Source: Mesorhizobium opportunistum WSM2075
Lineage (GTDB): Bacteria; Pseudomonadota; Alphaproteobacteria; Rhizobiales; Rhizobiaceae
DNA: 64,000 nucleotides
Assembly: GCF_000176035.2 (NCBI RefSeq)
Contig: NC_015675.1
Location: forward strand, 1,864,001 to 1,928,000
Direction: 5' to 3'
A program made the translations under genes and the position numbers. This document shows positions 31,962-38,368 of the stretch, in pieces (position 1 is the stretch's first letter; each line of letters starts with the position of its first letter). The notes beneath the pieces are model-generated. The model made no database searches. It was not told where the DNA came from and saw nothing but the letters and a program-made list of their open reading frames with translations.

Positions 31962-32270
31962 TCAGCGGCAGGTGCTCACGGCGGTGTTGCCAATTATCTG
32001 CGTCTGACAGCTCGGCTTGACCCGCGGCACGACCGGCTGCGGCGGCTGGACGACCACGCGGTCCTGGGCACGATACTGCTGCTGCTGCTGCTGGAATTGC
32101 TGGCGCTGAACCCGGTTCTGCAAGGCCTGCAGGTCGTTCTGCTGGATCTGGGCATTGCCGTTGGCCGAGGGAATGATGATCTGCGCGGAAGCAGATTGAC
32201 CAAAGCCCGCCAGGACCACAGCGGCCAATAGCGCCGCGGCAATGGCCGCCGGTGTTCGACGCGCTGACAT
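31962..32270 (-). CDS. Small secreted glutamine-rich protein
   Basis: A 102-residue protein with a signal peptide (hydrophobic residues 9-24, cleavage near A-S-A-Q). The mature part has a Q-rich stretch in the middle (about 35-60), proline-rich P-P-Q-P-V-V-P, and two cysteines near the C-terminus. The start is set at 32270 because AGGAACGA lies upstream. No family recognised; probably a periplasmic or surface protein found mainly in close relatives. Confidence 0.6.
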   Translation of the reverse strand: MSARRTPAAIAAALLAAVVLAGFGQSASAQIIIPSANGNAQIQQNDLQALQNRVQRQQFQQQQQQYRAQDRVVVQPPQPVVPRVKPSCQTQIIGNTAVSTCR

Positions 32271-32328
32271 TCGCTCGTTCCTGCAAAAAATCCTGTTCAT
32301 CCCTTGCATATAGGGTGTTTATCCGGCG

Positions 32329-32559
32329 ATGCCATGGCCGGCACATGGATCGCCCTGGATTGCCTTCGCGGCGGCGGAGAATCTGCCCGGCAACCCAGCA
32401 TTGCACTTGACGGAAGCGATCGATTCGCCGCTCTATCGGGTTGGCGCCGGTCTCGAAACGAATGGCGTCAATGGTGTCGGCGTGTCCGTCAGGTACAACG
32501 GCGCTTTCGGGGAAACGGTCAAACAGAATGCAGTCAGCGCGTCTCTCAAGGTCGGTTTC
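32329..32559 (+). pseudogene. Autotransporter beta-barrel remnant
   Basis: The 77 residues read like the last strands of an autotransporter outer-membrane domain: alternating hydrophobic residues, G-V-G-A-G-L-E-T-N, V-S-V-R-Y-N-G-A-F-G, and a final strand A-V-S-A-S-L-K-V-G-F ending in phenylalanine, as porin-type barrels do. A stop lies just upstream (near 32311), so the passenger and most of the barrel are gone. Where the stop would follow the Phe there is CAG, so the frame runs on into the ialB-like gene. Confidence 0.6.
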
Positions 32560-32598
32560 CAGGCTGGCTCGAGGCGGAGCTGGGCGGGAGAGATCTTG

Positions 32599-33174
32599 AT
32601 GCGGAAGTCCGTGTATTTCGTGGCGATGCTGGGTGCCGCCTGCATCGCCGGCCTGCCGGCAGCGGCGGCGCAAACCAAGGGCGACAAGGTGGCGGCGCCG
32701 CCGGCAGCCGATGCGCCACAACTGCCCGGCGGGGCATCGGCACTGTCCGAAACCCATGGCGACTGGACCGTCAACTGCCAGATATCGGGCACGAACAAGA
32801 TCTGCAGCCTGTCGCATCAACAGTTCAACAAGCAAAACAACCAGCGCCTGCTGGCGATAGAACTGTCGAGCAAGACCGGCGATGACGCGACGGGTACGCT
32901 CGCCTTGCCGTTCGGACTGGCGCTCGCCAAGGGCGTCAGCCTGACCATCGACGACCAGAAACTCGACGGCAGCCTGTCATTCAACACGTGTCAGGCGGTC
33001 GGCTGCCTGGTGCCGGTGGCGTTCGATGCCAACACCACGCCGCTGCTCAAGACGGGCACGACGCTCAAGATCGACGCCTTCGCCGCCGATACCGGCCAGG
33101 CGGTGAGTTTCTCCATTCCACTCAACGGTTTCGGTGGGGCGCTGGCTCGAACCGCGGAACTCCTGTCCAATTGA
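32599..33174 (+). CDS. IalB-family (invasion-associated locus B) protein
   Basis: A 191-residue exported protein with a signal peptide (residues 1-24, A-A-A-A-Q). The mature domain has the family pattern H-G-D-W-T-V-N-C, two disulphide-forming Cys pairs (N-C...I-C-S-L and N-T-C-Q-A-V-G-C), and the L-P-F-G-L-A-L segment. IalB affects erythrocyte invasion in Bartonella; in rhizobia the role is unknown. The ATG at 32599 is chosen from the signal peptide, since the frame extends upstream into the autotransporter remnant. A terminator hairpin follows. Confidence 0.85.
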   Translation: MRKSVYFVAMLGAACIAGLPAAAAQTKGDKVAAPPAADAPQLPGGASALSETHGDWTVNCQISGTNKICSLSHQQFNKQNNQRLLAIELSSKTGDDATGTLALPFGLALAKGVSLTIDDQKLDGSLSFNTCQAVGCLVPVAFDANTTPLLKTGTTLKIDAFAADTGQAVSFSIPLNGFGGALARTAELLSN

Positions 33175-33176
33175 CG

Positions 33177-33212
33177 GAGCAGTTCACTGTCAACGGAACC
33201 GGTGAACTGCTC
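33177..33212 (+). terminator. Hairpin terminator after the ialB-like gene
   Basis: GAGCAGTTCAC and GTGAACTGCTC form an 11-base-pair stem with a 14-base loop directly after the stop, followed by the T-rich TAACTCTTTGTTTT. Confidence 0.75.
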
Positions 33213-33219
33213 TAACTCT

Positions 33220-33301
33220 TTGTTTTGACGCAATTCCCAAGGGAAAGCGCTACGCGCTTTTCCCGGGAAAACCGTTCACACTTTTCCTGGAATTGCTCTG
33301 A
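33220..33301. repeat. Dispersed intergenic repeat, copy C
   Basis: Starts TTGTTTTGACGCAATTCCC, has an internal hairpin around AAAGCGC-TAC-GCGCTTT and ends CTTTTCCTGGAATTGCTCTGA. It overlaps the 3' end of coaBC: on the minus strand its end encodes the last residues and the TGA. Same family as copies at 15033, 18420 and 55713. Confidence 0.85.
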
Positions 33302-34748
33302 CGGCGATCGTTTTCAGCCGCTCGGCGATGAGGGCGGCGAGCCGTGCCGCCACCTCGTCCTTGGTCATCTCGGGCCATTCCTCGACACCGGCCTCGGACA
33401 CGATCCGCACCCGGTTGCGATCACCGCCCATCACGCCCGAAGCGCCGATGCCGCTTTCCTGCGACACATCGTTGGCGACGATGAAATCGGCGCCCTTCTT
33501 CCTGAGCTTGGCCTCGGCGTTGCGCAGGAGATCCTGGGTCTCGGCCGCGAAGCCGACGACAAGGCGGGGCCGCTGCTTGTGATGGCCGACCCCTGCAAGG
33601 ATGTCGGGGTTCTCGACCATGCGCAGTACCGGTGGCCCTTCGCCAGCCACCTTCTTGATCTTTTCATCGGCTGAATTTTCGGTGCGCCAGTCGGCGACGG
33701 CGGCGACGAACACCGCCGCGTCGGCGGGCAGGAGCTGTTCCACCGCGTCACGCATTTCCTGTGCACGCTCGACATGGATGGTCTTCACGCCGGCGGGATC
33801 GGCGATGCCGACAGGACCGGAGACGAGGCGCACGTCGGCGCCAAGCCTTGCCAATGCGGCGGCGATCGCATGGCCCTGCTTGCCGGACGAACGGTTGGCG
33901 ATATAGCGCACCGGGTCGATCGGCTCGTGCGTCGGGCCGGAGGTGACGATGATCTTGCGCCCCGCCAGCGGCTTGGGGCCGACATCGAGCAGCGCCTCGA
34001 CGGCGGCCACGATCTCCAGCGGTTCGGCCATGCGGCCTTCGCCGGCCTCGTTGCTCTCGGCCATCTCGCCTTTGGCCGGGCCGACGAAGCCGACGCCATC
34101 CTTGCCCAGGGTCGCGCGATTGCGGCGGGTGGCGGCGTGTGACCACATCCTGGGGTTCATGGCCGGCGCCATCAGCACCGGCTTGTCGGTGGCGATGAGC
34201 ACTGTCGAGGCAAGATCGTTGGCATGGCCGTTGGCGAGCTTGGCCATCAGGTCGGCGGTGGCGGGAGCGACCACCAAAAGGTCGGCTTCGCGCGACAGCC
34301 TGATGTGGCCGACATCGTGCTCGTCATTGCGGTCGAACAGTTCGGTGAAGACATGATCGGCCGAGAGCGCGCCGACCGACAATGTGGTGACGAATTCCTG
34401 CGCCGCCAGTGTCATGACCACGCGCACCTTGGCACCGCGCTCGCGCAGCCGGCGGATGAGATGGAGCGATTTGTAGGCGGCGATGCCACCGCCGATGATG
34501 AGCAGGATGCGTTTGCCGGAAAGGGCGCCGCGCGGCGACATCTTGCCTGCCGGGGCGGCAGCCGGAATCGCCGTGCCGTGCACGCTGGTCAGCTCGCGCA
34601 GGGTCTTTTCAGGCACGATCTGGCGGTCGACAGCGGCCCGGATCATCACCCGCGCCTGTTCTTCCATGGAACGGCTATTTTCCGCCGCGAGTCGGCGCAG
34701 CAGTTCCTTGACCTCATGGTCGAGATTGCGGATCGTGATGCTAGCCAT
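33276..34748 (-). CDS. coaBC: CoaBC with an N-terminal ribbon-helix-helix domain
   Basis: CoaBC makes 4'-phosphopantetheine from phosphopantothenate: CoaB adds cysteine, CoaC decarboxylates. The CoaC domain runs from about residue 78 (K-R-I-L-L-I-I-G-G-G-I-A-A-Y-K), with the catalytic His in D-V-G-H-I-R and P-A-M-N-P-R-M-W; CoaB starts near residue 260 with I-I-V-T-S-G-P-T-H-E-P-I-D. Residues 1-42 are unlike normal CoaBC: M-A-S-I-T-I-R-N-L-D, then two helices with S-M-E-E-Q-A-R, matching FitA/VapB-type antitoxin ribbon-helix-helix domains. No stop separates the parts. An internal ATG (34541) could start a standard enzyme but has only a weak ribosome site. The last residues A-I-P-G-K-V come from the repeat. 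Confidence 0.92.
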   Translation of the reverse strand: MASITIRNLDHEVKELLRRLAAENSRSMEEQARVMIRAAVDRQIVPEKTLRELTSVHGTAIPAAAPAGKMSPRGALSGKRILLIIGGGIAAYKSLHLIRRLRERGAKVRVVMTLAAQEFVTTLSVGALSADHVFTELFDRNDEHDVGHIRLSREADLLVVAPATADLMAKLANGHANDLASTVLIATDKPVLMAPAMNPRMWSHAATRRNRATLGKDGVGFVGPAKGEMAESNEAGEGRMAEPLEIVAAVEALLDVGPKPLAGRKIIVTSGPTHEPIDPVRYIANRSSGKQGHAIAAALARLGADVRLVSGPVGIADPAGVKTIHVERAQEMRDAVEQLLPADAAVFVAAVADWRTENSADEKIKKVAGEGPPVLRMVENPDILAGVGHHKQRPRLVVGFAAETQDLLRNAEAKLRKKGADFIVANDVSQESGIGASGVMGGDRNRVRIVSEAGVEEWPEMTKDEVAARLAALIAERLKTIAVRAIPGKV

Positions 34749-34774
34749 ATGATTGCACTTTGCTGAGATTGATC

Positions 34775-34798
34775 GATTGCAATGATATCAATGCAATC
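34775..34798. promoter_or_regulatory. 24-bp palindromic operator candidate upstream of coaBC
   Basis: Arms GATTGCA (34775-34781) and TGCAATC (34792-34798) flank a perfect TGATATCA centre; only the two A spacers (34782 and 34791) break the symmetry. It ends 26 bases before the coaBC ATG, and a further copy of TGATTGCA is at 34750-34757. This is the length and place expected for a dimeric ribbon-helix-helix repressor site. Confidence 0.65.
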
Positions 34799-34837
34799 AA
34801 ATGCTCGCAAGCTATGGCGCTATGGCGATAGCCGAGC

Positions 34838-36424
34838 CTAAAAGATCTTCCAGGCGATATAGACCAGCGTCAGCGCGATCACCCATAGCGCGACACGGCC
34901 GGAGCGGCTGTAGCGCGCTTCGGCCTTGCCGATCGCGTGGGCGGTGGTCTCGTCGAAGCGCAGGCCGTGCTCGGCCATCAGGTCGATCTCGCGCGACAGC
35001 CGCTCGGTGCGGACCGCAAGCTCAGGCACCTGGCGAAGCAGCGCCAGCATCGCCTTGCCGCCGTCGCGCGCATCGGCCATCAGGCCACGCGGGCCGAGAT
35101 TGCCTGATATCCAGCCGCCGACCACCGGCTCGGCCGTCTTCCACATGTTGAAGGCCGGATCGAGCGTGCGCGCCACGCCCTCGACCACCACCATGGTCTT
35201 CTGCAGCAGGATCAGTTCGGGCCGCGTCGCCATGTCGAAGAGTTCGGTGACCTCGAACAGCAGCGTCAGAAGCTTGGCCATCGAAATCGTCTCGGCCGGC
35301 TGGCCATGGATCGGCTCTCCGATGGCGCGGATCGCCTGCGCGAAAGCCGAGACATTGTGCTGGCGCGGAACGTAGCCGGCCTCGAAATGCACCTCGGCGA
35401 CACGCAGATAGTCGCGCGTGATGAAGCCGTAGAGGATTTCGGCGAGGAAGCGGCGCTCCTTCTTGCCGAGCCGGCCGGCAATGCCGAGATCGACGGCGAC
35501 GATGGTGCCGTTTGCCTCGACGAACAGGTTTCCCGGATGCATGTCGGCGTGGAAGAAGCCGTCGCGCAACGTATGGCGCAGGAAGGACTGGATGAGGTTG
35601 GTGGCAATCGCCTTGAGATCGTGGCCCGCCGCTTGAAGGCTCGCGATATCGTTCATCTTGATGCCGTCGACCCACTCCATGGTCAGCACGTCGCGGCCGG
35701 TGCGCTCCCAGTCGACGGATGGCACGCGAAAACCAGGATCATTCCTGGTGCTTTCGCCGAGTTCCGAGAGGGCCGCCGCCTCGAGGCGCAGATCCATCTC
35801 GATCCTGGTGGTCTGCGCCAGCGTCTCAGTCACCTCCACCGGCCGCAGCCGGCGCGACGACGGGATGTATTTCTCCTGCAGGCGCGCGGCTAGAAAATAG
35901 CTTTCCAGATCCTGGAAGAAGCGGCGGCGCACGCCCGGTCGGATCACCTTGACCGCCACCTTGGTCGCGGCGCCAGCCTGGACGGTTTCAGCGGCATGAA
36001 CCTGGGCGATCGAGGCAGCGGCGACCGGATCGCCGAATTGCGTGTAGAGATCGCCTATCTTGCGCCCGAGAGAAGCCTCGATGGCGGTGACCGCCTCGAC
36101 CTTCGGGAAGGTGTGCATCTTGTCTTGCAGCATGGCGAGATCGAGCGCCATGTCGTTGCCGACGACGTCGGGCCTTGTCGCCAGGAACTGGCCGAGCTTG
36201 ACGTAGGACGGTCCGAGCCGGACCACCGCCTTGGCCAGTCGGTCGCTGCGCTCATAGGCCAGTGCGCGGCGGCGGGTGAACAGGCGCGCCAGTCGCCAGC
36301 CGAGTTTCGGCAGGCCTGAGAGTTCCTCGCCCGGCAAGGCGGCGACGACGCCCTCGCGCACCAGCACCCAGCCGGCCCGCACCAGCCTGAAACCAGCGCC
36401 GACGCTGCTCATGGCTGCATCCAT
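34838..36424 (-). CDS. ubiB: Ubiquinone biosynthesis protein UbiB
   Basis: UbiB is an atypical ABC1/ADCK kinase-like ATPase needed for ubiquinone synthesis. The 528-residue protein has the K-x-G-Q motif (V-K-L-G-Q-F-L-A-T-R-P-D near 77), the alanine-rich A-A-A-S-I-A-Q-V-H loop near 135, and the catalytic H-x-D and N motifs (F-H-A-D-M-H-P-G-N-L-F). Two C-terminal hydrophobic helices anchor it. M-D-A-A-M gives two possible starts, 36424 or 36412. It follows ubiE by 58 bases, an order conserved in alphaproteobacteria. Confidence 0.92.
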   Translation of the reverse strand: MDAAMSSVGAGFRLVRAGWVLVREGVVAALPGEELSGLPKLGWRLARLFTRRRALAYERSDRLAKAVVRLGPSYVKLGQFLATRPDVVGNDMALDLAMLQDKMHTFPKVEAVTAIEASLGRKIGDLYTQFGDPVAAASIAQVHAAETVQAGAATKVAVKVIRPGVRRRFFQDLESYFLAARLQEKYIPSSRRLRPVEVTETLAQTTRIEMDLRLEAAALSELGESTRNDPGFRVPSVDWERTGRDVLTMEWVDGIKMNDIASLQAAGHDLKAIATNLIQSFLRHTLRDGFFHADMHPGNLFVEANGTIVAVDLGIAGRLGKKERRFLAEILYGFITRDYLRVAEVHFEAGYVPRQHNVSAFAQAIRAIGEPIHGQPAETISMAKLLTLLFEVTELFDMATRPELILLQKTMVVVEGVARTLDPAFNMWKTAEPVVGGWISGNLGPRGLMADARDGGKAMLALLRQVPELAVRTERLSREIDLMAEHGLRFDETTAHAIGKAEARYSRSGRVALWVIALTLVYIAWKIF

Positions 36425-36482
36425 CCGGCCGGTTCAAAGAACAGGCAGGAGCCATATCGAGGATGGGAAACGCGGTGCAGCC

Positions 36483-37259
36483 TCAAAGCTTCCAGCCCGA
36501 ATGCAATGCCGCGATGCCGCCGGAATAATTGCGGAAGGAAACACGGTCGAAGCCCGCGTGGGTGATCATGGAAGCAAAGTTTGCCTGGTTGGGGAATTTC
36601 GCGATCGATTCGACCAGATAGGAATAGGGCTCGCCGTCGCCGGTGACCATCTTGCCGATCCTGGGAATGGCGTTGAACGACCAGGCTTCATAGACTTTGT
36701 CGAGCAGCGGCATCTCGACCTCGGAAAATTCCAGGCACAGGAAACGGCCGCCCGGCTTCAGCACGCGGAACGCTTCACCCAGAGCGACGTCGATATGCGG
36801 CACGTTGCGAATGCCGAAAGCGATGGTGTACGCGTCGAAAGTGGCGTCGGCGAAAGGCAGTTCCTCGGCATTTGCCTCGACGAAGTCGGTGTTGCCGGAC
36901 AAGCCTTTCTTCTGCGCCCTGTCGCGGCCGACAGCGAGCATCGAGCCATTGATGTCGAGCACGGTGGCATGTGCGTTGCCATGGCTTGCGTCGACGATGC
37001 GAAACGCGATGTCGCCGGTGCCGCCGGCCACGTCGAGCACCTTCCAGCCCACTCTTTTCGGAGGGTTCAGCCACGTCACCATGGCATCCTTCCATAGCCG
37101 GTGCAGGCCGCCCGACATCAGATCGTTCATCAGGTCGTAGCGGTTGGCGACCTTGTGGAAAACATCGTTGACTAGGGACTGCTTTTCGCCTTCCCCTACA
37201 CGCTTGAAACCATAGGAGGTTTCCATGCCGCCCGCGGCCGTGGTTCTCTCAACTGACAT
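36483..37259 (-). CDS. ubiE: Demethylmenaquinone/2-polyprenyl-methoxybenzoquinol C-methyltransferase
   Basis: UbiE methylates the ring carbon of ubiquinone precursors. The 258-residue sequence has S-Y-G-F-K-R-V near 15, the SAM motif [12 protein letters not shown] near 75, and the UbiE signatures [11 protein letters not shown] near 40 and A-F-G-I-R-N-V near 150. It is the first gene of ubiE-ubiB. In many relatives mutM is divergent upstream; here add is instead. Confidence 0.94.
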
Positions 37260-37393
37260 TTTTTTGATCCGTCATAAAACCGGCGGGACCATAGCCGATC
37301 GATGGTGCGGGCGCTATTGTTTAAGGCGCGGTGTTCAGCCGCGCTTCCAGGTGCTGGTTTTCAAGGACCTGGACTGACCGACGGGATGTTTGA

Positions 37394-38368
37394 ATGCCTT
37401 TGAAAGCGGAACTGCACTGCCACATCGAAGGGGCAGCGGCGCCCGAACTCGTCATCCGCCAGGCGCAGAAATACGGCAAGGATACCTCGCCCTATATCCA
37501 GAACGGTTCCTTCGTCTGGCATGATTTCACGTCCTTTCTCGCGGCCTATGACTTCTCATCCGATCTGTTTCGGACCGAGGAGGATTATGCGCGGCTGGCC
37601 GACCATTATCTGACCAGCCTGGCCCGCGACGGCGCCATCTATTCCGAGGTGTTCACCTCGCCGGACCATGCGGCGAAAGCCGGACTGTCGCCCAAGGCCT
37701 ATACCGACGCGCTCGGCGAAGGCATGCTGCGCGCCAAGGCCAAGACGGGCATAGAGGGCCGCATGATTGTCACCGGCGTGCGTCATGTCGGCGTGGAATC
37801 GATCGAGCGGGCGGCGCGCTTTGCGGCGCGCTGCGGGCATCCGCTGGTCACCGGCTTCGGTGTCGCCGGCGATGAGCGCATCGGCGACATGGAGGACTAT
37901 GTCAGGGCTTTCGAGATCGCCCGCGAGGCTGGGCTCGGCATCACCGTCCATGCCGGCGAACTGACCGGCTGGGAGACTGTCCAGGCAGCGCTCGACCACA
38001 TCCGTCCCTCGCGCATCGGCCATGGCGTGCGCGCCATCGAAAACCCGGATCTTGTCCGGCGCATCGCGGACGAAGGCGTCGTTTTGGAGTGCTGCCCGGG
38101 TTCCAACATCGCGCTCAAAGTGTTCGACAGTTTTGCCGATCATCCGTTTCCGGCGCTCAAGGCCGCCGGCTGCAAGGTGACGCTCAACTCCGACGACCCG
38201 CCCTATTTCTGGACCTCGCTGAAGCGCGAATACGACATCGCCGCCGAACATTTCGCGATGAGCGAGAAGGCGCTGGCCGCCGTCACCAAAACGGCGATCG
38301 AGGCCGCTTTCGTCGATCGCAAGACCAAGTCCGCGCTTCTTGCCCGGCTGAACGCGGCGGCGCGCTGA
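37394..38368 (+). CDS. add: Adenosine deaminase
   Basis: Converts adenosine and deoxyadenosine to inosine forms. The 324-residue TIM-barrel protein has the zinc-binding H-x-H (E-L-H-C-H-I-E-G-A), the third His in V-H-A-G-E-L, the catalytic E, and N-S-D-D-P-P near 270. It may also represent adenine deaminase, which shares these motifs, but the surrounding nucleoside genes favour adenosine. It is followed 122 bases later by upp. Confidence 0.85.

Follow-up and report, generated by a model that had tools for sequence, protein, structure and literature searches.

PutA (proline utilization A) carries a ribbon-helix-helix (RHH) DNA-binding domain on a metabolic enzyme and represses its own operon. 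The locus described here also joins an RHH domain to an enzyme, but that enzyme is CoaBC rather than proline utilization A, the RHH domain is by profile of the FitA/VapB antitoxin type, and the putative operator precedes coaBC. Like FitA/VapB antitoxins, the protein bears an RHH of family PF22513 and a palindromic operator-like site lies over its own promoter; unlike them, it has no adjoining toxin gene and apparently no conserved tail, and its RHH is attached to an essential enzyme. Compared with CoaBC (Dfp) of Mycobacterium smegmatis (6TGV), with which it shares about 40% identity over 414 columns, the protein likewise has complete CoaC and CoaB domains, but about 76 N-terminal residues, comprising the RHH and a linker, are extra. 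Antitoxin homologues without a toxin have been proposed as regulators of other operons (Makarova et al. 2009, PMC2701414). Unlike the solo antitoxins presented in the main text of that paper, in which the terms "pantothen" and "flavoprotein" were not found, the antitoxin-type domain here is covalently part of the enzyme that it would control.

A preliminary description of this DNA knew of no account of such a fusion, and the searched literature, which lay mostly outside subscription papers, likewise yielded none; no paper on antitoxin domains fused to metabolic enzymes was found in a search that covered few subscription papers. Broader literature including antitoxin topics, among them the available part of the antitoxin review PMC4803016, held nothing on an RHH-CoaBC fusion by title and abstract start among the matches listed. 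CoaBC and an antitoxin were mentioned together in two papers, one of them with a Microcystis gene list, and phosphopantothenate and VapB in an archaeal genetics review. Public protein records already show the RHH and CoaBC Pfam domains side by side.

The window, as we call the whole 64,000-nucleotide stretch of Mesorhizobium opportunistum WSM2075 that was analysed, contains the following features around coaBC:

33276 to 34748, minus strand: RHH::CoaBC fusion gene, an uninterrupted frame of 490 amino acids
34623 to 34748, minus strand: FitA-like RHH DNA-binding domain, residues 1-42 (Pfam, AlphaFold2, Foldseek, dN/dS)
34521 to 34622, minus strand: linker, residues 43-76, variable and mostly disordered, occupying the place of the antitoxin tail (pLDDT, dN/dS)
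33996 to 34520, minus strand: CoaC, phosphopantothenoylcysteine decarboxylase domain, residues 77-251 (profile matches)
33402 to 33968, minus strand: CoaB, phosphopantothenate--cysteine ligase domain, residues 261-449 (profile matches)
34838 to 36424, minus strand: ubiB, the upstream neighbour of coaBC (open reading frame)
34775 to 34798, no strand: operator-like imperfect palindrome GATTGCATTGATATCATTGCAATC, upstream of the coaBC start
34805 to 34810, minus strand: -35-like TTGCGA (promoter scan)
34782 to 34787, minus strand: -10-like TATCAT, within the palindrome (promoter scan)
34750 to 34757, no strand: extra half-site TGCAATCA directly before the start codon, conserved in relatives

As the preliminary description had proposed, the frame is open throughout, and one chain holds a DNA-binding domain and an enzyme. 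In hmmscan against Pfam, FitA-like_RHH (PF22513) matched residues 2-40 with 45.7 bits (cut-off 27, E 6e-12), in line with the FitA/VapB-type RHH that had been read into residues 1-42. Flavoprotein (CoaC, 79-251) and DFP (CoaB, 261-449) both exceeded their cut-offs, as did NCBIfam coaBC_dfp (TIGR00521; residues 77-472, 405.4 bits versus a cut-off of 219.7, E 2.5e-121); judged by these profiles, the window protein is the complete CoaC-CoaB enzyme that had been claimed, with both catalytic steps predicted. The fusion is real and no artefact of assembly or start-codon choice, since in 101 of 145 congeneric coaBC matches the alignment begins at residue 1 or 2. The ATG at 34541 (codon 70), previously entertained as a possible internal start, occurs among 34 main-type loci at the window's own locus only and is thus not conserved. 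ATGs at codons 28 and 35, within the RHH, are common to all 34.

A search of the RHH sequence against solved structures gave no significant match (best E 0.082), so that a fold comparison was needed. In an AlphaFold2 model of residues 1-60, block pLDDT lay at 85-96 throughout residues 1-40, with an extended N-terminus and helices at residues 11-23 and 28-43. The top Foldseek match of this 60-residue model was DNA-bound FitAB (2bsq; E 0.05, probability 0.99), no match reached E 0.001, and the rows after FitAB were mostly RHH repressors or antitoxins (Arc, CopASO, CopG and others). VIA-align scores for MazE (6.8), FitAB (6.7) and the PutA RHH (6.2 and 6.0) were close to each other; the modelled fold of the fused N-terminal domain is therefore RHH, as the profile search and structure prediction suggested in the preliminary description were meant to reveal, and the FitA assignment comes mainly from the Pfam profile. 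Residues 42-71 had pLDDT values below 50 when the full-length protein was modelled.

A coaBC match was present in 145 of 146 congeneric genomes. The sequences of the 44 that do not align from residue 1 or 2 were all read: two are fused, with a longer antitoxin-like N-terminus (L058 and L064), 34 have an antitoxin-PIN pair, and eight have neither. The number of Mesorhizobium CoaBC proteins with the RHH, a count called for earlier, thus comes to 103 of 145, 37 of them read at sequence level and 66 called from a match starting at residue 1-2. For locus comparisons we used a classified set of 145 loci (147 less the duplicates L129 and L130) with profile-based fused and unfused calls, which leaves out the named loci, the class-wide loci, those of 199 own-family genomes and further own-genome loci.

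Among the 34 main-type loci, dN/dS, calculated from 120 randomly drawn pairs of 561 possible, was 0.052 for the RHH, 0.063 for CoaC and 0.085 for CoaB, whereas it was 0.305, sixfold above the RHH value, for linker residues 43-74. In congeners the RHH is hence under purifying selection as strong as that on the enzyme, while the linker is relaxed and mostly disordered. Residues R7, K14, A22, S27, E29 and R33 are invariant in 65 of 65 fused loci and T5 is present in 64 of them; residues 5 and 7 are on the ribbon, the element that contacts DNA in known RHH proteins.

The site previously singled out at 34775-34798 proved to be an imperfect palindrome over a conserved promoter. In a 5-kb scan, TTGCGA-17-TATCAT (34810-34782) was the sole sigma-70-like match, which taken alone is within chance (1 found versus 0.7 expected), and the palindrome overlies its spacer and -10 element. 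TTGCNN-N17-TATCAT recurs in 31 of the 34 main-type loci and TGCAATCA-N-ATG in 32, and the operator consensus over all 34 (at least 90% per column) reads TGATTGCATTGCTATCAT. When up to two mismatches were allowed, the pattern GATTGCANTGNTATCANTGC was found at a single place in the 6.88-Mb own genome, at coaBC. An RNA element around coaBC was also considered and dropped, as positions 32000-38000 gave no match to Rfam even at thresholds as lenient as E 1.

Operator tests across loci were set up after the upstream sequences of the first loci had been viewed. Within 150 nt of the start, GATTGCA/TGCAATC occurred in 34 of 34 main-type fused loci versus 0 of 42 unfused loci of the genus, and in 22 of 25 fused versus 0 of 14 unfused loci of family f35, with a Markov chance of 2-7% in these four groups. 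Palindrome strength, measured in a motif-free manner, was also greater in fused than in unfused loci (p 3e-10 in the genus, p 0.004 in f35), and the operator tracks the fusion in both. A GATAGCA/GATATCA-type site was seen in unfused loci (3/42 in the genus, 3/14 in f35), and GATTGCA/TGCAATC was found within 150 nt in none of the genus's three fusions of the toxin-loss type and not in the one HTH fusion. Outside the genus and f35, the contrast between fused and unfused loci is weak: in other families the motif occurred within 150 nt in 1 of 3 fused and 5 of 23 unfused loci, the motif-free test gave p 0.19 with four fused loci, and a clear palindrome was not found upstream at the fused locus L139. 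Within f35, operator type follows RHH type: the three of 25 fused loci that lack GATTGCA encode the three RHHs that depart most from the f35 consensus, and their upstream DNA has other repeats. Promoter-like pairs were present in only 19 of the 25, and a conserved operator-like site at the own promoter is present in both main-type and f35 fused loci.

We therefore suggest that CoaBC with its FitA/VapB-type RHH is probably an autogenous repressor of its own promoter, using a domain and an operator of the toxin-antitoxin type. Self-control of coenzyme A synthesis, which the preliminary description had raised as a conjecture, appears from sequence comparison to be the best reading, because a conserved operator lies over a conserved promoter, the RHH is under strong purifying selection and the operator type goes with the type of RHH. 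Neighbouring CoaBC subunits would pair through their RHH domains, which would bind the palindrome over the spacer and -10 element (34810-34782), and rising CoaBC would lead to falling coaBC transcription. From this arrangement we infer that the RHH domains would bind DNA, pair on the CoaBC oligomer and repress; the switch by substrate or CoA state that the preliminary description envisaged would be a further, conjectural step. According to PMC7794376, CoaBC of mycobacteria assembles into a dodecamer that has CoaC at its core, and its CoaB is inhibited by CoA and CoA thioesters; several RHH dimers per CoaBC particle might act together, and ligands might tune them.

The statement that no PIN partner is nearby held for the own genome, which has no PIN match beside coaBC, but not for the genus: in the 34 pair-bearing congeners, antitoxin and PIN open reading frames lie between ubiB and an RHH-less coaBC, at exactly the same junction. 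Long palindromes such as TGCAATGACAGCARTGCTGTCATTGCA mostly precede these pairs, with GATTGCA there in 4 of 34. The pairs are of several types (L007, L008, L059-L063, L065-L088, L092, L093 and L095), some with an extra RHH open reading frame in front. An antitoxin-PIN pair also precedes coaBC at L143, from another family, and at L144, from another genus of the own family, where no such palindrome lies in front; the junction therefore holds antitoxin-PIN pairs beyond Mesorhizobium. At L010, L089, L090 and L091, coaBC residue 77 follows ubiB by ~33 nt, with no pair and no fusion, and these loci are candidates for the empty junction state.

The fused locus L006 aligned with the pair-bearing L066 in two pieces (query 1-396 on 1-402 and query 396-483 on 867-954), running from ubiB through the promoter into the antitoxin and then jumping to the spacer before coaBC. 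The L066 gap, 403-866 (~464 nt), contains the end of the antitoxin open reading frame (197-457) and the whole PIN open reading frame (436-861), and the L006 frame into CoaBC is open; L066, to which the two stretches are about 87% and 93% identical, is a relative rather than the ancestor. Read in this way, L006 appears as a toxin-antitoxin operon minus one deletion, with fusion by toxin loss visible for this allele. L058 and L064 have similar junctions, in which remnants of an operon with two antitoxins are left, and a toxin-loss origin is indicated for them. Loss of the PIN gene would fuse the antitoxin RHH in frame to CoaBC, and promoter and operator would stay.

In an RHH tree built from only 44 columns and with many unresolved forks, the RHHs of L006, L058 and L064 cluster with antitoxins encoded next to coaBC, whereas the main-type RHH forms a separate, well-supported clade apart from them. 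For the allele in the window, which has a main-type RHH, toxin loss is thus a possible origin, extended to it from L006. A CoaBC tree, constructed with a quick method and with RHH columns excluded, included all eight plain congeners and 37 of the 103 fused ones; on it, the fused state requires at least 20 changes by parsimony, six of them forced by starred branches, and one clade (support 99) of 67 loci comprises 37 fused, 30 pair-bearing and no plain loci. Parsimony fits gain, loss or cassette exchange by recombination alike. The fusion might thus instead be old, with toxin-antitoxin pairs later replacing the RHH by homologous recombination and toxin loss explaining few alleles, as the separate main-type clade and the interspersion of fused and pair-bearing loci on the CoaBC tree would suggest; the grouping of the L006, L058 and L064 RHHs with coaBC-adjacent antitoxins, and junctions that match toxin-antitoxin operons, argue against it. 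We regard this course of events as plausible but somewhat short of an even chance. It alters the history and not the repressor mechanism, and its odds therefore do not compete with those of autogenous repression.

An in-frame ATG within four codons of CoaC residue 77 is absent from 32 of the 34 main-type fused loci and from all 25 of f35 (GTG and TTG were uncounted in this tally); one is kept in the fused loci L006 and L064 and absent in L058, and an ATG or GTG is found at this place in 37 of the 42 unfused congeners. This pattern is what old versus young fusions would show. It also means that the N-terminus is no longer simply droppable in loci without such an ATG, as would be expected if the RHH were a harmless remnant of a lost toxin-antitoxin pair, kept for its start codon and ribosome-binding context; the toxin-loss origin visible in L006 and indicated in L058 and L064 fits with such a remnant as well. 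A remnant is at odds, however, with an RHH dN/dS that equals the enzyme's in lowness and is far below the linker's, with the joint conservation of promoter and operator, and with an operator type that tracks RHH type in f35, and we consider it unlikely.

A metabolic enzyme that bears a DNA-binding domain could act at any site, and the RHH might allow CoaBC to control other genes rather than mainly its own promoter; however, with the full operator pattern, searched at up to two mismatches, found at coaBC alone in the own genome, such a wider regulon seems very unlikely. That the fused domain still works as an antitoxin against a PIN toxin whose gene lies elsewhere, in an anti-addiction role, as its antitoxin type and the PIN genes at the same locus in congeners might suggest, was rejected as the main reading and is highly improbable, because all eight PIN genes of the own genome have an antitoxin-like open reading frame directly upstream (by eye), and further because the antitoxin tail appears to be replaced by the variable, mostly disordered linker and the only PF22513 match in the own genome besides coaBC is a weak, partial one (C1:3828492, 28.1 bits, profile positions 8-37) with no PIN match nearby.

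Beyond Mesorhizobium, the RHH-CoaBC fusion is common and patchy across Hyphomicrobiales. In genome-wide searches, in which a match from residue 1 or 2 was scored as fused and counts are minimum values, many, not all, genera of the order had such matches, including at least 43 of 199 genomes searched in the own family. By profile, 27 of the 80 named loci closest to the window protein are fused, including Mesorhizobium, Phyllobacterium, Zhengella, Brucella and Bartonella records, and no Rhizobium, Ensifer or Agrobacterium record of the 80 is. In a search with a protein of family f35, the best 120 of 1701 proteins carry PF22513 and CoaBC domains, and those named to genus among these 120 matches listed are from Bradyrhizobium. 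As to the spread outside the order, among the matches listed for a 113-residue query in 240 class genomes the own genome alone gave an alignment over both parts (1-113), several of the listed matches began at query 23-46, and none of nine other class-genome loci examined had an in-frame RHH by profile.

In genome G063, CoaBC (L134:2583-4007, plus strand) carries a Cro/C1-type HTH instead of the RHH (PF01381, 26.3 bits versus a cut-off of 23), with two GGATATATCC copies upstream of the gene, and ten database relatives combine HTH_3 with CoaBC; a second kind of DNA-binding domain on CoaBC also speaks for the repressor reading. FitA-like RHH domains were also noticed on two other database proteins, an amidohydrolase-type protein of 532 residues (P0053) and a PF27151 protein of 665 residues (P0100), which by sequence are possible further enzyme-RHH fusions. 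As a tentative extension of the autogenous-repressor model, which we would not yet favour over its negation, CoaBC of Hyphomicrobiales may have repeatedly captured DNA-binding domains, several from toxin-losing pairs and once a Cro-type HTH; the CoaBC oligomer would replace the toxin as the scaffold for RHH dimers on tandem operators, and CoA, CoA thioesters or intermediates on CoaB would shift the geometry. In that case, what began as a selfish addiction module would have become a feedback loop that governs the supply of coenzyme A.

The transcriptional control of coenzyme A synthesis is, to our knowledge, poorly known, and the present analysis offers, for an essential enzyme in many rhizobia and their relatives, a concrete hypothesis of an autogenous repressor in which promoter, operator and domain are all identified. 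A single junction presents a series of states, namely plain coaBC, coaBC behind a toxin-antitoxin pair, a PIN-deleted fusion and a long-settled fusion, which makes antitoxin domestication directly testable.
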